Origin: Pseudoalteromonas sp. UG3-2
Lineage (GTDB): Bacteria > Pseudomonadota > Gammaproteobacteria > Enterobacterales > Alteromonadaceae
Direction: 5' to 3'
Assembly (NCBI RefSeq): GCF_037120705.1
Contig: NZ_JAWLJU010000002.1
Location: 1,922,001-1,986,000 of the forward strand
Length of the DNA stretch: 64,000 nt
The notes beneath the pieces are model-generated. The model saw only the letters and a program-made list of their open reading frames with translations, was not told the origin of the DNA and made no database searches. Positions 2,114 through 17,652 of the stretch are shown here, one piece after another. A program made the position numbers and the translations under genes. Position 1 is the stretch's first letter; every line of letters begins with the position of its first letter.

Positions 2114-3442
2114 TTATAATCGATGAGGATCTCGGATCGACCAATACAGTTTATCAATCACTTTAAAGAAGCACCGCTCAATTGCATCACTGTCCACAGC
2201 AATTTTATTACTGTCTAGTGATAAAACCTTGTCCAACTGCCTCCTTTCTCTGGTTCCTAAATGTTCCCATACACCATCGAGTTTGTACCTTGCCACTTTT
2301 ACTGCTAACTCATCAGGCAATTGCTGATATAACCTTGGAGAGAAATACTCAAGTCGACCAAGCTTTGTTTGTACGCCCTTCTCTTTATCACCCAGCCTAG
2401 CATTCGAGTTGGGTATTAAAGCTGAAACCAACGTGCCACCTTTACCGTCTTTACTAGATAGCAGCCTGCGCTCAACTTTAGAGATAGGGCCTAATCGCTT
2501 CGCATACTTTAGCGTGATAGTACGATCGTCAATCAGCTTCAGTAGTGGGTCATACACTGCGTAGTGCGAAGAGCCCGCAAGGTCGCCATGGTAAACGGTT
2601 TCTGTCAGAGCGTGAGATACATCTTCAGGCCAAATAGAATAAGTACTGGACATGTGATGAGGATCTCTAGTTAACAAAAATGGAACTGGTACACCGTATA
2701 ACTTAAGTTCACAATCCAACCTTGTAACGTATGCACCACGCGTTGTCCCTCTCGCCCCCTGCTTACGATTAAACCTAACAGCCTTATCATACTCACCATC
2801 CGATTGCGCTTTAAGCCAACCTAAGAATATTCGAAAGTTTCGGAATCCAAGCTGGGATAGGCGAGTGGAAATTCTTGAGGACCGCCTGACTTCTTTTTGG
2901 CTATCATCATTATCTTCTGCCTCGTTGCAATCAGCGCACTCACTCTCCTTCCAAACAGGATCAAAATGAAAGCGTATCTCCCCACCATGTTTAAACTTAA
3001 AGATCCGTTGCCGCTTGTACAGATGTTCAAGTTCACCACCAGAGTGGCTCGTTACTTTGACGTCCACCTTTGACTTCAACAACTTTACGTTACGTCGCAT
3101 TCGTTTCCATGTTTGCTCACTCAGTTCAAGAGTCATGGCAAAGTCATCAATACTTGGATCTATGTGCAACTCAGGATTTTGCAGAACTCGTACAAGCGCA
3201 TCATGACTAAAATTAGCAAATTCTTCATCTCGCACAAAACTTAGTAGTTCGCTATTCCTAATATTTCTAAAGTGGCCATCAGCACCATAGAAGTTTGTAT
3301 ACCGCTTGGCCATTGGAGCCAATGGATCGTATTGGTTAGTTGGTAGTAAGGCTATGGGTATAAAGAGGTACTTATACTTATTGTAGTTGGATAGATGGTT
3401 AGGTTTCACAGTGCTATTAGAACCTTTCTTTGCTTTTTTCAT
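2114..3442 (-). CDS. Hypothetical protein, 442 aa, island gene
   Basis: This is a long unrecognised protein. The frame stays open up to 3487, but the ATG at 3442 (MKKAKKGSNS) has GGGGA six bases upstream and is the likely start. There is no signal peptide. The middle holds a basic region, an acidic insert with two CxxC-like cysteines (ESECADCNEAEDNDD), and then a segment resembling RLSQLGFRNFRIFLGWLKA. Its upstream region carries direct repeats (3688-3744) that resemble iterons or operators. A replication-initiator or DNA-binding role is therefore possible, but I see no motif that proves it. It is transcribed divergently from the gene at 3773. Confidence 0.6.
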   Translation of the reverse strand: MKKAKKGSNSTVKPNHLSNYNKYKYLFIPIALLPTNQYDPLAPMAKRYTNFYGADGHFRNIRNSELLSFVRDEEFANFSHDALVRVLQNPELHIDPSIDDFAMTLELSEQTWKRMRRNVKLLKSKVDVKVTSHSGGELEHLYKRQRIFKFKHGGEIRFHFDPVWKESECADCNEAEDNDDSQKEVRRSSRISTRLSQLGFRNFRIFLGWLKAQSDGEYDKAVRFNRKQGARGTTRGAYVTRLDCELKLYGVPVPFLLTRDPHHMSSTYSIWPEDVSHALTETVYHGDLAGSSHYAVYDPLLKLIDDRTITLKYAKRLGPISKVERRLLSSKDGKGGTLVSALIPNSNARLGDKEKGVQTKLGRLEYFSPRLYQQLPDELAVKVARYKLDGVWEHLGTRERRQLDKVLSLDSNKIAVDSDAIERCFFKVIDKLYWSIRDPHRL

Positions 3443-3687
3443 AATGCATCCCCACAGAGGGGCCCCTAAACGATGGATTAACGCCAATTACGCTACATTC
3501 GAATGCGGCGTGACTATTGTGAACTGCAAAAGTTTTTAATTTTCTCAGCTGTACACAAATTAGGGTTTACAGTTTTGGAAAAGCACCTCTTTGAAGAAGA
3601 GGCAACAACCCAACGTTACCATTTATCAGGAAATCACAATCTGCACCAAGAAGGTTCAGGCACCTAATTAGAACCCAACAAAAAACC

Positions 3688-4407: not shown

Positions 4408-5868
4408 TCACTCAGCGATCAACCTAACACCATGTGATGAACCGCAACTTTTAATATTCTGAGCTAAGCCAATGATTTTACTCATACCATCTTGGTTAGC
4501 GGGGTTATTAGGCTCGGCAGTATCAACGATGACATATTGTTGAGTACCGTAGGCGGTTACAAAGCTGAGCCTCAACACATACTGCGTATCGATGCTGAAC
4601 AAGCCTTTCTCACCAAACGATATATCGATAGCTTTACCGTTTTTTGCGACTTCATGCCCACCAAAGTGGCTTGAAAGACAATGTACAACTGCATATGTGC
4701 TGTCTATCGGGTTGCCGTACTGTCCGAATGAGAACATAGCATCAGGATAACCAAGGTCTTGAAGGCTTTGGGCTGCTTCGCTTGATTGTGCCGCTATTGC
4801 GTATTGCCTGACCTTTTCTTGCTCACGCTCTCGAGCCTGCATGATCTGCCGGTTATTTTCTTCTTCAGCTTGTTGAATCGATTCATGGACAGCTAGGAAC
4901 TTAACTTTAGTCGATTGAGCATCAGCTAAAATACCTTTAACTTGGCTAATATTTTCTGCTGGTAGCCCTCTGTTCTCAAGCATCTCGCCACTTCTGATCA
5001 AGGCTTCAAGAATAGACTCTAGTTCAAACTCATTTGGGATTTGTGAAGGCCCCTCGGGCGACTGGAATAAACTCTGTAGATCTAGTTGGCCAGCAGCGTG
5101 CTGCTCGACGAAAGGCTTAATATTTTGATTTAGTCTTGCCGCATACTTATTGAATATAGCTAAGTAAGGTTCATAACGGGCATCGCGTAAGTAACTATCA
5201 AACTGCTGAGACACATTTGATACTTTAGTAAGCACCTCTTTATCACTGTAAGTAAGCAGATCCTTCATATCGACATTACCAGACTGCGCTAACGAGGTTA
5301 CGCCTTCTATCCACTCTGATAAGTTTGATATAAGGTCTTTAATGCTCTTGATAGCATTGTCATCTAACGCCTTAGGCAGTTTACGACCAAGGCCTGAAGC
5401 CGCTACAGAAGAGATCCGCTCACGCTCTATAGGTAACTTTTTATTACTAAAGCCGTCTTCACTATATTGGATACCATGCGCCTTCAGCTTCTGCTCTAGC
5501 TCACTCATCAACTTGCCGCCCTTTCCTTTGTAAGTATCCACAATCTGTCGGGCTTGAAGGTTGACTTCAATCTCGGCTTTCACGGTCTCAAAATAAGCTT
5601 GTTGCTTAACTAGCTTTTGCGTTTTGAAACCATCTTTACCATGCTTTTGAGTGTATTCAGATAAACACTCCTGAAACCTTTTCTCAATTTCACCAACAAG
5701 CTCGGGCGACCAGCTACCGAATGGGCTTCTAAGCCTATCAGGCTGGTAAGCTTTTGGGTCAAGGTAAGAGCTTTTCTCTAGGTGGCTACAGCTAATTGTT
5801 GTGGCTTGAGCACTCAATGCAGTGGTGGATAAAGTAACTAGGGCAATGACTTTCCATTTGGCGTTCAT
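4408..5868 (-). CDS. Hypothetical exported protein, 486 aa
   Basis: The likely start is the ATG at 5868 with GAGGG eight bases upstream; a TTG at 5883 would only add five residues. The N-terminus (MNAKWKVIALVTLSTTALSA-QA) is a typical Sec signal peptide, so the mature protein is periplasmic or secreted. The central part is helical, with a charged coiled-coil stretch near residues 335-365 (EEENNRQIMQAREREQEKV). The C-terminal ~120 residues look globular with two spaced cysteines (VVHCLSSHF and IKSCGSSHG). I do not recognise the family. It diverges from the XRE repressor at 6018, and the three operators between them suggest repressor control. Confidence 0.6.
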   Translation of the reverse strand: MNAKWKVIALVTLSTTALSAQATTISCSHLEKSSYLDPKAYQPDRLRSPFGSWSPELVGEIEKRFQECLSEYTQKHGKDGFKTQKLVKQQAYFETVKAEIEVNLQARQIVDTYKGKGGKLMSELEQKLKAHGIQYSEDGFSNKKLPIERERISSVAASGLGRKLPKALDDNAIKSIKDLISNLSEWIEGVTSLAQSGNVDMKDLLTYSDKEVLTKVSNVSQQFDSYLRDARYEPYLAIFNKYAARLNQNIKPFVEQHAAGQLDLQSLFQSPEGPSQIPNEFELESILEALIRSGEMLENRGLPAENISQVKGILADAQSTKVKFLAVHESIQQAEEENNRQIMQAREREQEKVRQYAIAAQSSEAAQSLQDLGYPDAMFSFGQYGNPIDSTYAVVHCLSSHFGGHEVAKNGKAIDISFGEKGLFSIDTQYVLRLSFVTAYGTQQYVIVDTAEPNNPANQDGMSKIIGLAQNIKSCGSSHGVRLIAE

Positions 5869-5908
5869 ATTAGGTTCCCTCAATGGAATTAATAATCGGT
5901 TGTATTAA

Positions 5909-6278: not shown

Positions 6279-6418
6279 TCGTTTCGGTGCCTAAGTACGG
6301 CCAAGGCTCACCCTAAAACCGCTCAAGCCTTCCTGATACCTTGGATTAAAAGAAACAGGGTATCAACTATGCTAATCATACACTTACAGCAATGCTGTCT
6401 TCAGTTGATGGAGGCAGT

Positions 6419-8455
6419 ATGACACGAACATACAACAAACTTCTGCCCTCAAACATGTATCAGTCCTACGCCACAGGCTATACATATCGGGCAATGACCT
6501 CAGGCTTTATCGACTCCACTGACTTAATGGCGGTCAAAGGTGCCACCATCAAAAGCATCTGTGGCACTTCTTTTAAGTTCACGGGGCAAAATGAAGACTT
6601 TGACAACCTAATCCACCACCTACACCAAAGGTTATCTGTGACCAAAGGCTGCGACCTAGGCCATAACTGCCGTGTGTTTGAACATGGCTTGCAGCTACCC
6701 GCCAACAGCTGGAAGGTGATTAAACTCATGGTGGTGCTTAAGGTAAACGGTGGCCTTTATGAGTGGATACACTGCTGTCTGCCTTCGGACATTCATATCA
6801 ACTCGATGTTTTCTCATATGGTTGGGATCACAGAAGAGGCGCTCATTAACATCAACCTTGCCTTGGCGGAAACTGGCCTAATACAGGGTTCACAATACCC
6901 CCAACTGGATCAATCCGGTATCCCCCATGCCTTGGTGGAAAAGCTAGTGTGTGAAAAGGTTACAAGTTATACCGAGCTAATTGAACCATTGGTACAGATG
7001 CAACCAGCATCAACCTTAGGCTTAAGTGACTTTAAGCACCTTGAATTAGATGACCTAATCGCCTTCCTTAATGTGGCATTAAATCACTCCATCCAAGGCT
7101 GTAACGTGCTTTTGTGGGGCGTGCCTGGCACTGGCAAGACTCAGCTAAGTCGCTTGTTGGCTGATACCTTAGGCGCTTCGCTTATTGCCATTAAAGCCTT
7201 TGGCTCTGATGTCCACCAGCGAGAGGTGGATTATGACCAAGAGAGATTAAGTTCAAACCTTAGGCTTCAGCATCACCATTTGGTACAACGAATAGTCAGC
7301 CATGACGAGAAGTCTTTGCTTATGCTGGACGAGGCGGAGGATATATTAGTCCAACAGGTGTTTAACCACCGCGCCTCAGGTGGCAAAGATAACCTACACA
7401 CCACACTGGAAGCCAACACCGTACCGTGTATTTGGGTGGTTAATTCGGTAGATGATATTCCAGCCAGCGTCCTAAGGCGGTTTAATTTCGTTAAACACAT
7501 TTTCGTGCCAGACAACCGCGTTATGGAAGGCATTATCGCCAAAACCTCCAAAGGCCTGAGGTTAAGTAAACCATTTAAGGCGCAGCTTGCCACCAAGGAC
7601 AATGTTACCCCCGCCAATATCGCCAACGCCGCCTTCGTGTGCCATACCATAGGCCACCAAGGTAAACAGGCTGAGGCTTTGGTAGATAGCCTTATTACTG
7701 AAGTGCACCAAGCCTGTGGCTTTAAAACGACTACCGCCACCTACAAGGCACAAATGGCGTTTTCACTCGATAACCTTAACATCAAAGGTGGCAATAAAGC
7801 CTTGGTGGACATTGAACGAGCCATTAAAAAATCTGGTGGTGTACGTGCCTTATTCACAGGGCCAAGTGGCACAGGTAAATCTGCTCTAGCCAACCACCTA
7901 GCCAAAACAACCAATCAAGAACTTATCATCATCCGTTGTAGTGACGTCCTCGATAAGTATGTGGGTGGTTCAGAGAAGAACATAGCCACCCTGTTCGCCA
8001 ATGCCACAGAGCAAGGAGCTGCCCTGTTCATTGATGAGGTGGATAGTCTGTTGGCCGATAGGTCTGGGGCTTCTCAAAACTTTGAAATACAGCAAGTTAA
8101 CGAGCTACTGACTCAAATCGACTGCTTCGAATTTCCGCTCTTCGCTGCAACGAACTTTGAAAAGCATCTCGATCGCGCTGTAATGCGTCGTTTTGACTTT
8201 AAATTAGCTTTTGAGTACATGACATCAGATCAAGTCATAAAGCTCTTCAGAGAAGCGTGTGGACGCTCTCAGATAACAGATTATCAGCTACAGCAACTAG
8301 CAAATCTTAAAAACATCGCAGTCGGCGATTTTGCGATTATCAAACGCAGACAGCAATTTTCGACAACTAAGCTATCCGCCCAAGACTGCTTAGACATTCT
8401 CATTACTGAATCCAATCACAAGCAAACCACAAGGCCAATTGGCTTTGTAAAGTAA
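6419..8455 (+). CDS. Tandem AAA+ ATPase
   Basis: This 678-residue protein carries two AAA+ modules behind an N-terminal domain of about 210 residues that I do not recognise. Module 1 has Walker A GVPGTGKT (about residue 235), Walker B LLMLDEAED (about 300) and an LRRF arginine motif. Module 2 has Walker A GPSGTGKS (about 481), Walker B ALFIDEVDSLL (about 535) and MRRFDF. Both look catalytically intact. The second resembles p97/FtsH/spastin-like unfoldase or remodelling ATPases. The ATG at 6419 is preferred over 6392 because GGAGG lies four bases before it. The partner gene follows 23 bases downstream, so they form an operon. Substrate unknown. Confidence 0.8.
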   Translation: MTRTYNKLLPSNMYQSYATGYTYRAMTSGFIDSTDLMAVKGATIKSICGTSFKFTGQNEDFDNLIHHLHQRLSVTKGCDLGHNCRVFEHGLQLPANSWKVIKLMVVLKVNGGLYEWIHCCLPSDIHINSMFSHMVGITEEALININLALAETGLIQGSQYPQLDQSGIPHALVEKLVCEKVTSYTELIEPLVQMQPASTLGLSDFKHLELDDLIAFLNVALNHSIQGCNVLLWGVPGTGKTQLSRLLADTLGASLIAIKAFGSDVHQREVDYDQERLSSNLRLQHHHLVQRIVSHDEKSLLMLDEAEDILVQQVFNHRASGGKDNLHTTLEANTVPCIWVVNSVDDIPASVLRRFNFVKHIFVPDNRVMEGIIAKTSKGLRLSKPFKAQLATKDNVTPANIANAAFVCHTIGHQGKQAEALVDSLITEVHQACGFKTTTATYKAQMAFSLDNLNIKGGNKALVDIERAIKKSGGVRALFTGPSGTGKSALANHLAKTTNQELIIIRCSDVLDKYVGGSEKNIATLFANATEQGAALFIDEVDSLLADRSGASQNFEIQQVNELLTQIDCFEFPLFAATNFEKHLDRAVMRRFDFKLAFEYMTSDQVIKLFREACGRSQITDYQLQQLANLKNIAVGDFAIIKRRQQFSTTKLSAQDCLDILITESNHKQTTRPIGFVK

Positions 8456-8478: not shown

Positions 8479-8916
8479 ATGACTAAATCAATATTGAGTA
8501 CGCTCAAGGCCGTTTCACGTCCAGAGAAAAGCACCACACCAGAGGCCAAACGCCGTGACAAGCTAATCAACCGCCTTCAAATCCAATTGGAAATGGCAAC
8601 GGCGCTGGTTAATGGCGAATCCTACACCTGTTACAAAGAAAAGTGGCAGAAGAACGAGGAAACAGGCCAACAGGAAAAAGTTAAAGTCGCTAAGAAGGTG
8701 AGCCCTTGGTTCTACGCCAAAGGCGGCAAGTATTACTTAGAGGTGCGATACGCCAATAAGCCATTGGAGCTATCTAAAGGAAACCATGCCATTGAAGTTG
8801 GTGACAAAGAAAGCCTGCCGATGGTAATTCAAACCGTGATTGACGCCACCGCCAATGGTGAACTGGATAAGGCAATCGAGTTGGTTACCAGTAGCTTACC
8901 TATCAACAAAGCCTAG
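8479..8916 (+). CDS. DUF6641-like protein, partner of the AAA+ ATPase
   Basis: This 145-residue soluble protein begins ILSTLKAVSRPEK and has a basic helical N-terminus (about 20-45) followed by a beta-rich part with WFYAKGGKYYLEVRYANKPL and a helical tail. From memory, this layout fits the DUF6641 family, small proteins found beside AAA ATPases in proteobacterial integrated elements. I cannot verify that by search. AAGG lies eight bases before the ATG. The gene follows the ATPase at 23 bases, and a terminator-like hairpin follows it, so the two genes close one transcription unit. Function unknown; an ATPase adaptor is one possibility. Confidence 0.65.
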   Translation: MTKSILSTLKAVSRPEKSTTPEAKRRDKLINRLQIQLEMATALVNGESYTCYKEKWQKNEETGQQEKVKVAKKVSPWFYAKGGKYYLEVRYANKPLELSKGNHAIEVGDKESLPMVIQTVIDATANGELDKAIELVTSSLPINKA

Positions 8917-8945
8917 TCAACTTGATTATCTATGGACTACACCAC

Positions 8946-8983
8946 AAAGGAGAGCTAAAACTAGTTCTCCTTTACGAGTTTTT
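8946..8983 (+). terminator. Rho-independent terminator after the AAA+ operon
   Basis: AAAGGAGA (8946-8953) pairs with TCTCCTTT (8966-8973) around a 12-base loop, with GAGTTTTT following. It lies 30 bases after the DUF6641-like stop and between convergent transcription units. Confidence 0.55.
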
Positions 8984-9017
8984 GGGAGTTAGCTGGTTAA
9001 GAGTAATTAATAAAGCA

Positions 9018-10094
9018 TCATGGCGTTTTTAACTTTATTACAGGCAAAGCCCTATCAGCCCCTCCCCCTACATACTTTGAAAACATAACTTTTTCACCAA
9101 CCTCAGGGAGCGTACCGTATACACTGTCGACATGATAAAAAACATCACACTGCGTTGGAAGTGTAATAAACCCCCATTTTTGGTGATTAATACTTTTCAT
9201 GGTTCCGATAAACCGCTCGCTTACTTGGTAGCATAGCTCACCGCATTTCTCGACTAACTCATCCGCTGTGGGCCTATCGTCAACAGAAACATTTAAGCAA
9301 CTTTTAATCAACATAATTAGTTCACTAGACAAATAGCTAAATTGGGGGTTAGCGGTGATAAAAGGAGGAAATGGATCATATTTTCCGTCCATTATATGTC
9401 TTACTGCCCTAAGCCCTGAACCAAATGGCTTGCTGCCTGTGAGCAATTCATACATCATGGCGCCTAGTGACCATACATCAGCTTTCAAAGTAACCTTTCT
9501 CGGGGTGTCAATAGCCTCGGGAGCCATATATGGCAGGGCCCCAACAGCTGTAGCTGAAGTACTGTTAGTTATATCACCTCCTTCCGCTGCCTCAACAATT
9601 TCTTCTTCTGCCATTTTAGCTATGCCAAAATCTGTAATTTTCAATTCTATAAGCTGATATTGCCCGGCCACCATTATATTTGTAGGTTTTAAATCTCTAT
9701 GTAAAACGCCTGCGTGATGAGAGGCTGCTAGCCCTTTAGATAAGTGATGAAAGATTTTTGCCACTAGAAATGGATCTAGGAACTCCACACCTTTCAAAAT
9801 GGCGCAAGATAAATCCAACCCCTCTATCAACTCTTCAATTAAATATGGCCTGCCACTTTCTTCAACATAATCAAGTGTCTTCGCCACGTTGGGGTGATTT
9901 ACTCTTGAAGAGACAATAGCACTCCTATGAAAGCGCTTTTCAGCAGTAGCATCTTTGGGTGTTTTGAGCGCGACAAACCTACTTAGAACCTCATCCCGTG
10001 CTTTATAAACAAATTGCATCCCTCCTTCACCAACAAAGTCCACAACAGTATACCTAGATACTATACGGTCACCCTCTGTGTGCGGACCTTTCAT
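9018..10094 (-). CDS. Ser/Thr protein kinase fused to a cold-shock domain
   Basis: Residues about 15-285 form a complete Hanks-type kinase: glycine loop GEGGMQFVYKA, ATP-binding Lys in VALKT (K44), catalytic loop HRDLKPTN (132-139), DFG (155-157), APE (191-193) and DVWSLG. The last ~60 residues (about 296-356) read GTMKSINHQKWGFITLP, CDVFYHVDSV, then VGEKVMF and end in PVIKLK. This is the layout of a cold-shock domain with RNP1 (K-WGFI) and RNP2 (VFYH) motifs, which binds single-stranded RNA or DNA. There is no membrane segment, so the kinase is cytosolic. The start has GGAGG upstream and overlaps the preceding kinase stop as ATGA. It is the last gene of the phosphatase-kinase-kinase operon. 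Confidence 0.88.
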   Translation of the reverse strand: MKGPHTEGDRIVSRYTVVDFVGEGGMQFVYKARDEVLSRFVALKTPKDATAEKRFHRSAIVSSRVNHPNVAKTLDYVEESGRPYLIEELIEGLDLSCAILKGVEFLDPFLVAKIFHHLSKGLAASHHAGVLHRDLKPTNIMVAGQYQLIELKITDFGIAKMAEEEIVEAAEGGDITNSTSATAVGALPYMAPEAIDTPRKVTLKADVWSLGAMMYELLTGSKPFGSGLRAVRHIMDGKYDPFPPFITANPQFSYLSSELIMLIKSCLNVSVDDRPTADELVEKCGELCYQVSERFIGTMKSINHQKWGFITLPTQCDVFYHVDSVYGTLPEVGEKVMFSKYVGGGADRALPVIKLKTP

Positions 10095-11161
10095 ATTGCT
10101 ACCTCCGGATTGGATATATCAAATGTAACAAAGATTCTCTGTGTATAGTGTCGGCTGCTGGTACCAATACCAACAACACATGAACCAGGAATTACCATAT
10201 CACCGTTTACCTTAATATTATTCATGTAAACTTCACCCGAGACATTCTTTAGAGAGAAGTTCAAGCCGTTATAATGAATCTCAAAGGAACCTATAGTTCC
10301 GAACTCTAATTTAGCGCTTCTCTTGTTCTTATTGAGAATATGGGGCTGACCTTTTATTACAGCTAAAGCTTGATGTTTATCGAATAACAAATATTTACTT
10401 ATTTCATCTCTGATGACAGACATCTCGGGTCTAGACGTAGGCTCACTTGACAAACATTTCTTAAAAAGCTCAACTAATTTAGGATAAGGAGCTAAGAGCT
10501 CGCAATCAAAAGCCGAGTCGGTTACTGGAATGGGGGGGAATTGATTCTTCAACTTAGGTAAATCTTGAGTCGCTAAATAAAGAGCTGTGGCACCAAATGC
10601 GTAAACGTCTATTGCTGGTGTAAAGCACACCTCATGATATGTAAATTGTTCTGGGGCCGAAAACCCTGGAGTTCCTTTGAAGCCGACCGTTCTAGCATCC
10701 TTCCCTGTATTTCTAGCCAACCCAAAGTCAAAAATTTTCAGTACGCCTTCGCTATCGAGTTTCATATTATTTGGTTTAATGTCTCGATGAATAATACCAG
10801 CTGCATGTATATCGGAAATTCCTGATGCGATTTGCCAGAGTAACTTCAGCAGTCTTATAGAGTCTAATGAATCAAAATCCAAATTAAACAGGTCAGTGCC
10901 ATCAATATATTCCATCACTATCGCAAATTGTTCACTGTCCCAAGGGACAATATCGAACACCTGTACGACATGCTTGGAGCGCATTTTCATCAAAGCTGAT
11001 ACTTCATCCCTCAACCGCTCAAGCTCTGAAAAGTCTTTAATTGTTTTAATTGCGACAGTCCTATCTAGGTGCCTATCTTTGCAAAAAATCACATCTCCAA
11101 ACCCACCACTTTCTTTAGTTCCATTAGGTAGGTAGCGTGAAGAAAGAGAACTACTAATCAT
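10091..11161 (-). CDS. Ser/Thr protein kinase with a possible FHA-like tail
   Basis: This is a Hanks-type kinase of 356 residues with glycine loop ESGGFGDV, VAIK lysine (about residue 39), HRDIKPNN (about 125), DFG (about 145), GTPGFSAPEQ and DVYAFG, so it should be active. The C-terminal ~75 residues are beta-rich (EIHYNGLNFSLKNVS, VYMNNIKVNGDMVIPG) and resemble a degenerate FHA fold, without the usual GR and SxxH phosphopeptide residues. That part of the call is weak. The ATG at 11161 is preferred because AAGGA lies nine bases upstream; it overlaps the phosphatase stop by eight bases. No membrane segment is present. It is the middle gene of the operon. Confidence 0.85.
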   Translation of the reverse strand: MISSSLSSRYLPNGTKESGGFGDVIFCKDRHLDRTVAIKTIKDFSELERLRDEVSALMKMRSKHVVQVFDIVPWDSEQFAIVMEYIDGTDLFNLDFDSLDSIRLLKLLWQIASGISDIHAAGIIHRDIKPNNMKLDSEGVLKIFDFGLARNTGKDARTVGFKGTPGFSAPEQFTYHEVCFTPAIDVYAFGATALYLATQDLPKLKNQFPPIPVTDSAFDCELLAPYPKLVELFKKCLSSEPTSRPEMSVIRDEISKYLLFDKHQALAVIKGQPHILNKNKRSAKLEFGTIGSFEIHYNGLNFSLKNVSGEVYMNNIKVNGDMVIPGSCVVGIGTSSRHYTQRIFVTFDISNPEVAI

Positions 11162-12221
11162 CAAAATCAATCCTTAATTGTGGCTTTTTGGTATTATTAT
11201 CAAGCTCATCCTTGCCTGTTTTCTTACGCTTATGTCTTTTATGTACAGGCTTTTTTTCCTTGTCAGAGCCGCTTTTCTCAACTTCCTCAGTACCGGAGCT
11301 AAGTGGTTCATCATCTGACGGAACCTTCTTTGGTTCAGTTGGCTGATTTTTCTCAATGCCAATTAGTTGCACATCTCCGAATGCATCCCACAGCTGAACT
11401 GTACCTGTTTTAATCTTTTCTGCTGAGTTATAGAACGAAGCCAAATCCGACAAAGCTATGACCGTTGAATTATCATGCCCTCCACACCACTTTGCTACAT
11501 ATATGAGCCGTTTTGATAACTCTAGAGGAGTAATATTTTGAGTAATAATAGAACTTAAAGTATTACTCTCAAGATAATGCACACCATCGCTAGTTAACAA
11601 GACTTTTTCTACTTCATTGGGCATTGACAAATTTAGCAAATGAGGCTCAATATCATCACCAATTCCGATGTATTGAAGCAATTTATTACTTAACTGAGAA
11701 GGTGATGACTGGTGGTTTAATTGTCCCGCAATCGTGTCATCTACAGATATTTGTTTAAGCGCACCATCACAGCTTGTGTAAAGACGACTATCACCTACAT
11801 TTACAGCTTCAAAATGGCCGTCACTATCTAATATGAAAGCAGATAGGGTAGCCCCACCTTCACCATTATATTTTTGAAAAACATCTTTGTTTGCTAACTC
11901 TACGCCCTGTAACAGCCGCTCTTTAACTTGAAGGTTTCGATTTCTAATACAACTAGATATGAAAGATGCGACTGCTAACGAGGCACAATCTGCCCCTTCG
12001 CTCATCCCCCCCATACCATCACATAAAACACCAACCAAGAAGAACTTACTACTAGACACCTGAGCTCTGAGTATCACCGCTTTATCTTGATTTTCCTCTC
12101 GAACGCTACCTATGTCTGAACCTATGGCTACAGGTAACCCTAGTATTTCTCGACAACCAGCTCTGGCAGTTTTTCTACATAGCCAGTCTTTAATCTGTAT
12201 TTTGATTGCATCTTGTTCCAT
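11154..12221 (-). CDS. PP2C-family Ser/Thr phosphatase
   Basis: The 355-residue protein carries all PPM/PP2C metal-site motifs: SDIGSVREENQD (about 34-45), CDGMGG (about 69-74), GGATLSAF, NVGDSRLY, LTSDGV and GGHDNSTV. It should be a Mn/Mg-dependent phosphoserine/phosphothreonine phosphatase. Residues about 290-355 form an acidic, lysine-rich low-complexity tail (KKPVHKRHKRKKTGK) not found in minimal PP2C enzymes. It is the first gene of a three-gene operon with two kinases, so it probably reverses their phosphorylation. It lies 132 bases downstream of the integrase gene on the same strand. No clear ribosome binding site is visible before the ATG. Confidence 0.88.
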   Translation of the reverse strand: MEQDAIKIQIKDWLCRKTARAGCREILGLPVAIGSDIGSVREENQDKAVILRAQVSSSKFFLVGVLCDGMGGMSEGADCASLAVASFISSCIRNRNLQVKERLLQGVELANKDVFQKYNGEGGATLSAFILDSDGHFEAVNVGDSRLYTSCDGALKQISVDDTIAGQLNHQSSPSQLSNKLLQYIGIGDDIEPHLLNLSMPNEVEKVLLTSDGVHYLESNTLSSIITQNITPLELSKRLIYVAKWCGGHDNSTVIALSDLASFYNSAEKIKTGTVQLWDAFGDVQLIGIEKNQPTEPKKVPSDDEPLSSGTEEVEKSGSDKEKKPVHKRHKRKKTGKDELDNNTKKPQLRIDFDD

Positions 12222-12353
12222 AGAATATTATCGACCATGCAGTTGTAGGTTTTTATCAGTTCGCCCAATTAAAAATCGTAGGAGCGAACATAAAGAGATT
12301 ATTAGTTTATAACACATTGTTACTAATTGAACATAAACCAGATCCACCATATA

Positions 12354-14132
12354 TCACTCCAAACAAACTTTAAATACATCCACTACCCCCACCAAACTTT
12401 TAATACTCGTTGCCTTATGGGTATAGTTACTCGTTATACCGAACGAGCTGATCTCGTGTCCCACCACTTGTTGGAGGTTATTCACTGGCACTCCATCGTT
12501 CATTAGCTTGGTAATGAAGGTGTGACGGAAACTGTGGAATGACCGTTTATGGCCTAGCTCATTGAACGTTGGTACACCAATAGACTCCATTAGCCTAGGC
12601 ATCCAGCCTGTTACACGTACCGACTTATCTAACTCTTCAAATAACCATTGATCACATGAAGCCACATACTCAAGGAAGCCGTTCGCTACCAAGGCCTTGT
12701 GTATTGGTATCTTGCGTTTGGCATTATCCGTCTTTAACTTCTGATCTTTATGTTCGTCGGTGATAAGTATGTAATGCCGCAGAGTTTCCTCATCATACCG
12801 AATATCCGACTTCCTTAACTGAGACAGCTCACCAAGCCGTGCCCCTGTGTATATGCCAAGTTGAATAATCCACTTCTTCCAAGGCTTGTGTTGCTCCTTG
12901 GCGGCATTTAAGAACTGTTTTAGCTCTGTATCCGAAAAAGCACCTCGGGTATTGGTAGTAAAGTCGCGCTTGATAGAGCAAGGTGACACACTAATCAAGT
13001 CCACCGTGTCTTTCTTGGCGTAGGCGAATACCGACTGTGCCCATTTGTAATAGCCTTGGACTGACTTAGGTGAAATCAAGTCATCCTCGGGCACTTCACA
13101 CTCCACCCGCTCTTGCCAACTCATTTTGTTGTAAGGCGCAATATTCATGCGGGGTAGCTCAAAGCACTTATCGATAAACCGCCCAATATCCTTAGGCTTG
13201 TACTGCTCAATTGGCCGATCTTCCATCACCAGCCGCCAAACCGTATAGATCCTTTCATAGTCTTTCTGTATTTTCTCGGTCAACTTTTCCTTCTTGATTT
13301 TGAATGCAAGGAATTCGGCATAGACCTCCGAAAACAGCGGACCTGTTGGCTCCTCTTTCACCTCAATCTCAGGAGCTGCGACCATGACCTGAGGTGGCTT
13401 GGTTAGTAAGCCTTGGACTTCGCGCTCTCCTAGGAAATCTTCGTTAAAGATGGACGCCAATAACTCCCCCCTGACAGCATTACTGGCCTTGAGCTTACTC
13501 AATAGGACGCGGTAAGGAAGGCTATTTGGCTCAATGGAAAAGCCGTGTTCGGCGAGTAGTTCATTGGCCTGTTGGGGTAGACCTTCTTCATCGGTAGGAT
13601 CTTCCTCCATCCTTGAGAACATCTTCATCACTGAAGCCATAGACTCTAGGAAAGACCACCTTTCATCATCGGGCAAAGCTTTAATAATCTCAGCGAATCG
13701 GCTTACACGTTCTTCATTGGAGTCTATATCCGCCATGTCGATGAGTAGCTCTTTGAATTGGCCGTCCAGTTCCAGTATCGACTTATCACCTAAGGCATTA
13801 ACTGCGTGACCACCATCACTAAAGCTCTGCTCTAGCTTGGCTATCATTGGATCTATGTCGGCTATGGTTAACTGCTTTTGCATGGCACTTTTTATCTGAT
13901 TTAGCTGCTGGCTTATTGAACTAGTGTCTAACGTCCTTGAATGAATAACAAGCCCCTTTAGCTTTGAAATTAGTGGCTTGAGGCGTTCGATCAATACCAA
14001 GGCCACCTCTAGTTTGTGTGTCCTAAGGCACAGCCTTATTTCCCTCACTCCAAGGCGCTTAGGTATTTTAACCCTAAGGTAGTATGTGGCCTTCCGACGA
14101 TATAAATATTGGCAACCAACTACGGCCTGCAT
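12354..14132 (-). CDS. Tyrosine recombinase / integrase of the island
   Basis: The C-terminal ~180 residues hold the tyrosine-recombinase catalytic set: TGARLGELSQLR (Arg about 432), a lysine in the KTDNAKRKIPIHK region, HSFRHTF (His-x-x-Arg), GHEISSFGITSNYTH (His and nucleophile Tyr). The N-terminus (YLYRRKATYYLRVKIPKRLG) resembles the small arm-type/DUF6538-like domain of long integrases. The family is unusually long at 592 residues because of a helical insert. The ATG at 14132 has GAGGT four bases upstream; the frame extends to a TTG at 14150. It lies at the end of the island next to rnpB and is transcribed into the island, as expected for the enzyme that integrates it. Confidence 0.9.
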   Translation of the reverse strand: MQAVVGCQYLYRRKATYYLRVKIPKRLGVREIRLCLRTHKLEVALVLIERLKPLISKLKGLVIHSRTLDTSSISQQLNQIKSAMQKQLTIADIDPMIAKLEQSFSDGGHAVNALGDKSILELDGQFKELLIDMADIDSNEERVSRFAEIIKALPDDERWSFLESMASVMKMFSRMEEDPTDEEGLPQQANELLAEHGFSIEPNSLPYRVLLSKLKASNAVRGELLASIFNEDFLGEREVQGLLTKPPQVMVAAPEIEVKEEPTGPLFSEVYAEFLAFKIKKEKLTEKIQKDYERIYTVWRLVMEDRPIEQYKPKDIGRFIDKCFELPRMNIAPYNKMSWQERVECEVPEDDLISPKSVQGYYKWAQSVFAYAKKDTVDLISVSPCSIKRDFTTNTRGAFSDTELKQFLNAAKEQHKPWKKWIIQLGIYTGARLGELSQLRKSDIRYDEETLRHYILITDEHKDQKLKTDNAKRKIPIHKALVANGFLEYVASCDQWLFEELDKSVRVTGWMPRLMESIGVPTFNELGHKRSFHSFRHTFITKLMNDGVPVNNLQQVVGHEISSFGITSNYTHKATSIKSLVGVVDVFKVCLE

Positions 14133-14164
14133 ATTCACCTCACTAACCAATGCAGATCAAAGCA

Positions 14165-14382: not shown

Positions 14383-14411
14383 GCTTGATCTACATAAGTA
14401 AATCAAGCGGT
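14380..14411. repeat. Ten-base inverted repeat at the island/rnpB junction
   Basis: ACCGCTTGAT (14380-14389) and ATCAAGCGGT (14402-14411) are perfect complements around 12 bases, starting about ten bases beyond the rnpB 3' end. It could be the rnpB terminator, though no T-run follows in that direction, or part of the attachment core recognised by the integrase. Confidence 0.5.
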
Positions 14412-14419
14412 TACTAAAG

Positions 14420-14790
<371 letters not shown>

Positions 14791-15765: not shown

Positions 15766-17652
15766 GTGCAGTTTCAAAAGATAGCGCTTTTAGTTGCCAT
15801 ATTGTCGGGGTTATCCGCTTGTAGTACAAGCACAAATGTCACTACATCAGACCGCGCCAAGCAAATTGAGCCAACAGCGGTGTCCGCCGAACTCAGCGCT
15901 GCAGCCTTATTCAACAAAGCACAAGGCGCGTCTGGGATCAGCAAGATTCAACTGTTGTACAGTGCCAGAGATGCCGCCATTAGCGAACAAGATTGGCAAA
16001 CGTTAGAACAAGTTGGCTTAGCCTTAGAGGCCAAGCCCAGTGTCGACCATATCCAAAATAAGCTCTACATCGCCTTTGCACGCAAACAGTTAGGTAAATA
16101 TGAAAGCGCGCTGATAATGTTAAAAACCTTAGAAGGGCGTTTAACCACACCACAGCATCAAGCTTGGCATCAGTATTTAATGGCGAGCGTCTATGCTTCG
16201 CAAAGCCTACCTAAAAAAGCGTTAACAAAATACTTTGCCGCTGCAGATATCGCTAAAGCCAATAACCTCACTGTTGCAGGATTGGATGAGGGTATTTGGC
16301 AAGCACTGCAACAACTGTCTACATATGCGTTGGAACGCTTTGATAGCGGCTCAGTATTACAACGTGGCTGGGTTACCTTAGCCAAGTATCAACAAATTTA
16401 TCTCGGCTCCAGTGCCGCGTTAGATCAAGCCATGAACAATTGGCGTCGCCGCTTTCAAGATCATCCGGCCATTAGCCTGCTGCCAAAGGAGCTACAAGGT
16501 GCCGTGGCGCTTGAGCCGTATCAAGTGAGCAAGCTGGCGATTTTACTGCCGCAAACGGGCCCCAGTGAGCGCCTCGGCAGTGCATTAAAAAATGGCTTTT
16601 TGGCGGCCACCGATGACAGCAATATTGAAGAAATTTTCTTTATCGATGAAAGGGCATCGGCCGATGAGATCACTGCGGAATTGGCCAAAGCCAACGTTGA
16701 TTTTGTAATTGGACCACTATTAAAAAGCAATGTCGAGAAGCTCGCCCAAGACAATCGCTTTGCCGCCTACCCGACGTTATTTTTAAACAGCCAAGAGAGC
16801 ATTGAGACAAGCGCCAGTGAGCAATACTTTTTTGCTTTAAATCCAGAGCATGAAGTACAACAAGCCATGAACCACTTCTTGGCAAAGGGCTACGAAAAGC
16901 CCATGTTATTGGCACCAGATACTGGCTCCGGCAAACGCTTGATTGCACATTTTACCGAACATTGGCAGCGCTACAGTGAAGTAGAGCCGGAAATCGGCTA
17001 TTACACCAACAGCGAGAATATGGCCGAAGTCATTGCCGACCTGCTTGAGGTCGATGCTTCTCGCTCTCGCACTCGCAGTGTGAAAAGCTTGTTTCGCCAA
17101 GAAGTAAAGAGCGAAACGCGCTCACGCCGTGATATCGATGCCGTGTATATTCTGGGTGACGCCATGGAAACCCGTTTATTGAAACCTTATTTAGACGTTA
17201 ATGTCAGTACGTTTGCCGAGCGTATTCCGCTCTATGCCAGTTCGCGCAGTTACAGTAAGCAAATTGATGTCACCGATAAAGGCGATTTAGAAGGGCTTTA
17301 CTTCACCGAGCAACCTTGGATGCTTCCAGGCGCGGTCAACCAAGCGTCATTGCGTGAGGCATACCAACGACTATGGCCTGAGCAGGCTGATTTAGAACAG
17401 CGCTTATTTGCCATGGCTTATGATGCCGTGGGCTTAGTGCCGCAATTGCGACAGCTTGCTTGGCTGGCTGGAAAAAGCTATGACGGCTTAACCGGTGAGC
17501 TTAGCATTCAAAATGGCACCCAAATACAACGCAAGCTGAGCTGGGCGCAATACAAAAATAAGCAAGTGCGACTGGTCAGTTTAGATGAACAAGCGCCCTT
17601 GCCGTTATTTATGCAACAGGAGGAGCAAACCGCTACTTCCTTGGTCAGATAG
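15766..17652 (+). CDS. lpoA: Penicillin-binding protein activator lipoprotein LpoA
   Basis: This 628-residue outer-membrane lipoprotein activates PBP1a for peptidoglycan synthesis. The signal peptide ends in the lipobox LSAC at about residue 17-20. An N-terminal TPR-like helical part (to about 240) is followed by a periplasmic-binding-protein-like domain with LAILLPQTGPSERLGSALKNGF, typical of the LppC family. The GTG at 15766 has AAGG seven bases upstream and is preferred over the TTG at 15760. It leads the lpoA-yraN-diaA-dolP cluster and diverges from rsmI. Confidence 0.92.
   Translation: MQFQKIALLVAILSGLSACSTSTNVTTSDRAKQIEPTAVSAELSAAALFNKAQGASGISKIQLLYSARDAAISEQDWQTLEQVGLALEAKPSVDHIQNKLYIAFARKQLGKYESALIMLKTLEGRLTTPQHQAWHQYLMASVYASQSLPKKALTKYFAAADIAKANNLTVAGLDEGIWQALQQLSTYALERFDSGSVLQRGWVTLAKYQQIYLGSSAALDQAMNNWRRRFQDHPAISLLPKELQGAVALEPYQVSKLAILLPQTGPSERLGSALKNGFLAATDDSNIEEIFFIDERASADEITAELAKANVDFVIGPLLKSNVEKLAQDNRFAAYPTLFLNSQESIETSASEQYFFALNPEHEVQQAMNHFLAKGYEKPMLLAPDTGSGKRLIAHFTEHWQRYSEVEPEIGYYTNSENMAEVIADLLEVDASRSRTRSVKSLFRQEVKSETRSRRDIDAVYILGDAMETRLLKPYLDVNVSTFAERIPLYASSRSYSKQIDVTDKGDLEGLYFTEQPWMLPGAVNQASLREAYQRLWPEQADLEQRLFAMAYDAVGLVPQLRQLAWLAGKSYDGLTGELSIQNGTQIQRKLSWAQYKNKQVRLVSLDEQAPLPLFMQQEEQTATSLVR

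Follow-up and report, generated by a model that had tools for sequence, protein, structure and literature searches.

The genes and the question

Next to an integrase gene in the genome of Pseudoalteromonas sp. UG3-2 lie a gene for a PP2C phosphatase and two genes for Ser/Thr kinases. The question is whether they form a signalling system of a new kind, and whether they serve defence against phages or the regulation of the element that carries them. A first-pass annotation of the 64,000-nucleotide stretch analysed here (the window) had called them a self-contained phospho-signalling cassette, possibly not described in this form. The first half of this description holds, as the three genes are conserved as a unit and are carried on a mobile island. 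The second half does not: in order, sizes, domains and motifs the triad corresponds feature by feature to KKP (kinase-kinase-phosphatase, PfpC-PfkB-PfkA), described in 2024 (PMC11341870), and is therefore not an undescribed system. KKP is reported to be a tripartite toxin-antitoxin and anti-phage module. Very probably, the triad represents a KKP module that the island carries as defence cargo. The features of the locus are collected in Table 1.

Table 1. Features of the KKP locus and its island (positions in the window)
Feature	Position	Strand	Length	Evidence or remark
Backbone AAA ATPase	6392..8455	+		Pfam AAA E 1e-38; phrog_10401 E 6.9e-71
Backbone gene DUF6641, bounds the cargo slot	8479..8916	+		92-94% identical in three sibling islands
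Variable cargo slot	8917..12353		3437 bp here	Holds the triad
pfkA-like Ser/Thr kinase	9018..10094	-	358 aa, 1077 bp	PF00069 E 3.9e-47; C-terminal cold-shock domain
pfkB-like Ser/Thr kinase	10091..11161	-	356 aa, 1071 bp	C-terminal FHA fold
pfpC-like PP2C phosphatase	11154..12221	-	355 aa, 1068 bp	PF13672 (PP2C_2) E 1.4e-06
Tyrosine integrase of the island	12354..14150	-		PF00589 (Phage_integrase) E 1.1e-16
Attachment-site repeat	14402..14439		38 bp	Imperfect direct repeat; adjoins and overlaps the rnpB 3' end
rnpB (RNase P RNA), integration target	14420..14787	-		Rfam RF00010, 330 bits

Domains and motifs of the triad

The gene coordinates agree with the arrangement first noted, in which the PP2C gene and the first kinase gene overlap by 8 bases and the two kinase genes by 4, and the integrase gene lies 132 bases upstream of the PP2C gene on the same strand. 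For pfkB, the ATG at 11161 was taken as the start; a TTG upstream of it, at 11170, is also possible and would yield a gene of 1080 bp. A scan for sigma-70 promoters returned 7 promoter-like sites, compared with a mean of 13.8 in shuffled sequences, and no minus-strand site between the integrase and PP2C genes.

The catalytic motifs had been described as intact, and every kinase and PP2C motif that was searched for is present. PfpC contains the metal-site motifs DGMGG, GDSR, TSDGV and GGHDN as well as EENQD and GGATL. It matches the Stp1/IreP model (E 2e-31) with 109 bits, which does not reach the curated cut-off of 230, and weakly matches the candidate model PDC-M21C (E 8.8e-06); its tail is charged, with 17 K/R and 16 D/E among the C-terminal 70 residues. 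Both kinases match Pfam Pkinase (E 3.9e-47 for PfkA and 2.1e-38 for PfkB). PfkA has GGM, VALK, HRDLKP, DFG, APE and GFI, the last at residues 308-310 and invariant in 23/23 aligned rows, and PfkB has GGF, VAIK, HRDIKP, DFG and APE. At the PfkB position of GGM, GGF is found in 23 of the 26 aligned PfkB rows.

The C-terminal domains of the kinases are recognized less readily. In PfkA, the C-terminal 70 residues match the cold-shock family PF00313 with E 2.8e-4 and 21.1 bits, under the Pfam cut-off of 27, and matches to CspB are weak (best E 0.0077); relatives of this domain were found in 19 of 28 candidates, our own included. When the C-terminal domain of PfkB was modelled alone, its top PDB matches in Foldseek were mostly FHA domains, none of them reaching E 0.001, and a fold search with the whole PfkB model returned kinase folds only. 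Pfam FHA had no match in any of the 16 PfkB C-terminal domains searched, and other sequence searches for an FHA domain in PfkB gave nothing usable. Relatives of the PfkB domain were found in 23 of 87 candidates (own included), and its conserved residues do not include the canonical phosphothreonine-binding ones.

Conservation of the triad across genomes

As to whether the three genes stay together elsewhere, models were built for all three proteins and 39 loci were scanned: three species genomes (found via PfpC), 35 viral contigs picked up with PfkA, and a Klebsiella phage. A full-length PfkA, scoring 447-626 bits, is present in 18 of the 39 loci, and in all 18 PfpC and PfkB lie directly upstream of it in identical order and on the same strand. 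In the remaining 21 loci, all viral and lacking a full-length PfkA, the search matched other kinases with no more than 124 bits or nothing at all, and PfpC is absent as well. Loci with interrupted frames, L022 (PfpC, PfkB) and L034 (PfpC), were counted as found. The window, L021, L023 and L024 supplied the sequences of the PfpC model, and some of them also entered the models of PfkA and PfkB; only the 14 viral contigs thus lie outside the models, and these were themselves fetched with the PfkA alignment. Nor do the 18 loci represent 18 independent events, since L029 and L030, and likewise L035 and L036, score nearly alike. With some near-duplicates among the 18 loci in which the triad is kept together, its association exceeds chance.

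An integrase match was seen in seven of the 14 viral triad contigs, at a distance of 4.9-5.9 kb, and in none of the other seven, which are possibly fragments; the Klebsiella phage is an exception, with an integrase on the opposite strand 267 bases past PfkA. Tight integrase linkage is not a constant feature of the triad.

Full-length PfkA is rare among relatives. Of 108 species genomes searched in the genus and 369 in the class (at most five candidates per genome scored), a single one has it in each case, our own, and other kinases reached at most 150 bits. A PfpC search of 60 relatives matched 21 genomes, the best match apart from our own having E 1.5e-10 and 32% identity. An exact-peptide search of genome contigs with one protein matched 20 stretches, three of which encode a relative. 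In E. coli, 14 of 5426 genomes (15 records) carry one clade of the triad, of which NZ_CP010235.1 was examined. In E. coli S40 the triad is part of a P2-like prophage, flanked there by the genes for the replication endonuclease and the portal protein, and its proteins are 57% (PfkA), 45% (PfkB) and 39% (PfpC) identical to ours. Nine of 72,556 plasmid records match PfkA at E <=1e-60, and on the one plasmid examined, from Rhizobium, the triad adjoins a Shedu-annotated gene. In the Planktothrix phage PaV-LD (L153:3989-5943), a PP2C protein 36.5% identical to PfpC is followed by a single annotated kinase of 272 aa; this pair is perhaps a reduced or different module.

The island at rnpB

The triad is carried by an island of 17,561 bp at the 3' end of rnpB. 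That the host is a Pseudoalteromonas agrees with its LpoA, which has 77% identity to the protein of P. piscicida. The second copy of the 38-bp repeat, identical at 36 of 38 positions, lies outside the window (G000:C2:1918841-1918878). Just beyond this left repeat, at L025 about 16700-16880, there are more rnpB-tail-like and attachment-like repeats, which may be the remnant of another insertion. Second copies of the repeat were also seen in other Pseudoalteromonas (G065:C24, L143; G102:C2, L144; G016:C11) with 84-92% identity, a hint that integration at rnpB recurs. The island integrase is 92% identical over 418 residues to a protein at rnpB of the relative G090.

At the far island end, upstream of the window (L025:16906-19313), a D12-type DNA methyltransferase matches PD-Lambda-5 B (E 5.9e-122) and a ParB-like protein matches PD-Lambda-5 A (E 1e-194). 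Because these matches span nearly the full length of both proteins, the island probably carries a second, PD-Lambda-5-like defence system, and defence-type cargo is thus found at both island ends. An assignment of the backbone AAA ATPase to IetAS was rejected: the IetA matches cover only part of it, and blastn finds the gene kept in three sibling islands. Two further island proteins, of 491 aa (4408-5883) and 457 aa (2114-3487), have no Pfam or PHROGs match, and the N-terminus of the former resembles that of an exported protein. A check for a P4-type satellite gave no Psu match in our genome; the control was positive nowhere, so this check is uninformative.

A possibly exchangeable slot for defence genes

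DUF6641 has matches in 5 of the 108 genus genomes: our own, the three siblings of Table 1 (G090, G102 and G016) and a distant relative at 41% identity (G100), which has no nucleotide match to the island. Nucleotide identity to the three siblings is 73-92% over parts of the flanking backbone and 70-91% in the integrase region. What lies between DUF6641 and the integrase is different, however, and none of the three carries KKP. The slot of G102 (4554 bp) contains matches to Lamassu LmuA, LmuB and LmuC (E 1.5e-24, 2.1e-81 and 2e-19). In that of G090 (2018 bp), a match to the candidate system PDC-S14 (7.2e-107) is accompanied by a gene for a 304-aa protein (L141:16423-17337) without PADLOC or NCBIfam match, and in that of G016 (585 bp) there is a 118-aa match to a methyl-directed restriction enzyme (1.4e-45) that covers about two thirds of the model. 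All four slots read thus contain defence-type genes, with KKP in one of the four.

These observations bear on the suggestion that the cassette could be an element regulator. The Pf6 KKP is reported to control prophages through phosphorylation of the silencer MvaU, and our triad might likewise act mainly on mobile elements, governing through phosphorylation of a silencer whether its own island, or a prophage in the same cell, is excised. This precedent and the 132 bases that separate the triad from the integrase speak for such a role; against it, the triad is missing from three sibling islands that share backbone genes and have an integrase that aligns, and these hold other defence-type genes in the slot. 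Nor did our genome match the single phage portal family and the single terminase family searched for (controls positive in 4/14 and 6/14 genomes). On these grounds, a prophage-regulator role is less likely here, and we consider regulation of mobile elements as the main function improbable. Because the sibling slots hold other defence-type genes, KKP at this locus looks like exchangeable defence cargo rather than a required element regulator.

A broader reading, to which we give about even chances, is that the rnpB islands of Pseudoalteromonas share a single defence slot, next to the integrase, with contents that are exchanged, KKP being swapped with Lamassu, PDC-S14 and the methyl-directed restriction enzyme. 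It would follow from this exchange that KKP is here freed from prophage control and serves solely as a kinase toxin set off by infection, possibly together with PD-Lambda-5 at the opposite island end. Exchangeable defence slots are not new in themselves, since modular defence hotspots in Pseudomonas genomic islands are the subject of a 2025 paper (PMC12629846). A literature search found no paper treating Pseudoalteromonas, genomic islands and rnpB together.

Proposed function

In the published KKPs, the two kinases are jointly toxic and PfpC neutralises both. Four modules were tested in E. coli K-12; each gives protection from T4 and, in addition, from one or more of T1, T5 and T7, but not from lambda or M13. 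T4 Gp59 binds the PfpC of one E. coli KKP module, and a Pf4 protein triggers KKP via degradation of PfpC, according to a 2026 paper (PMC13048266).

Because KKP is reported to be both a toxin-antitoxin and an anti-phage module, infection-triggered kinase toxicity held back by the phosphatase appears the likeliest function of our triad, and we infer its toxicity, antitoxin role, trigger and anti-phage effect from other KKPs. PfkA (kinase and cold-shock) and PfkB (kinase and FHA) would form a joint toxic pair, restrained by PfpC through dephosphorylation. If a phage component inhibited or removed PfpC, the kinases would be released and would then phosphorylate host proteins of replication, translation and division, so that growth and phage production stop. 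Defence, initially one of two options, thus appears the likeliest role, judged by the match to KKP and by the defence-type slots of the siblings. In the literature KKP is portrayed mainly as a module of prophages that both directs lysogeny and fends off lytic phages. The present locus, on an island without visible phage genes and in a slot where sibling islands have other defence-type genes, lends itself to the question whether defence by itself suffices to maintain the module.

Comparison with known systems

Kinases and phosphatases also occur together in other systems. The PppA/PpkA/Fha set of T6SS control is linked to T6SS structural genes, and the TerY-P triad has TerY (vWA) as a partner gene. 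A Pfam scan of 15 island proteins matched neither TerY (vWA) nor any T6SS structural gene, and no partner gene of T6SS control, TerY-P, MADS or PD-T4-6 was found among the island proteins scanned. The kinase domains of the triad do match the PADLOC models of MADS Mad6 and PD-T4-6. However, the matches listed for the PADLOC defence kinases lie in the kinase domain, those to PD-T4-6 included, and the E. coli KKP-type kinases give generic matches of the same kind. What the triad shares with PD-T4-6, MADS Mad6, PglW and the other PADLOC defence kinases is a Ser/Thr kinase domain. Membership in MADS was rejected, the NCBIfam Mad6 model giving 123 and 109 bits, far under its cut-off of 460, and T6SS control, TerY-P and PD-T4-6 are disfavoured; that the triad belongs to any of these four is highly improbable. 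The matches in the 2023 defence library (PADLOC models) include no KKP-named model, which makes for a pitfall in annotation: the best kinase matches in this library are then Mad6 and PD-T4-6.

The comparison with KKP is much closer. In the 2024 report (PMC11341870), the module is defined by the order PP2C-Pkinase-Pkinase and by genes each >900 and <1300 bp, PfkA has a C-terminal cold-shock domain with GFI/A, PfkB has a C-terminal FHA domain, and GGM occurs in both kinases. More than 90% of KKPs are located in prophages; 114 are outside, 70 of these linked to mobile-element genes. Our triad likewise has the PP2C gene ahead of the two Pkinase genes, all on one strand, each of the three genes falls within the size filter, HRD and DFG are found in both kinases and the PP2C motifs in PfpC, and the whole lies on a mobile element. 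PfkA has the C-terminal cold-shock domain, with a Pfam score under the cut-off, and GFI; the C-terminal FHA domain of PfkB is indicated by its predicted fold only and not by Pfam. The E. coli KKP-type triad shares the above identities and has the same overlaps of 8 and 4 bases, and differs in its P2-like prophage site in S40. Two differences from the published modules stand out: PfkB has GGF instead of GGM, which PfkA retains, and the triad occupies the variable slot of an rnpB-integrated island rather than a prophage. As a system the triad is ordinary; what makes it interesting is its place in an apparently exchangeable defence slot.
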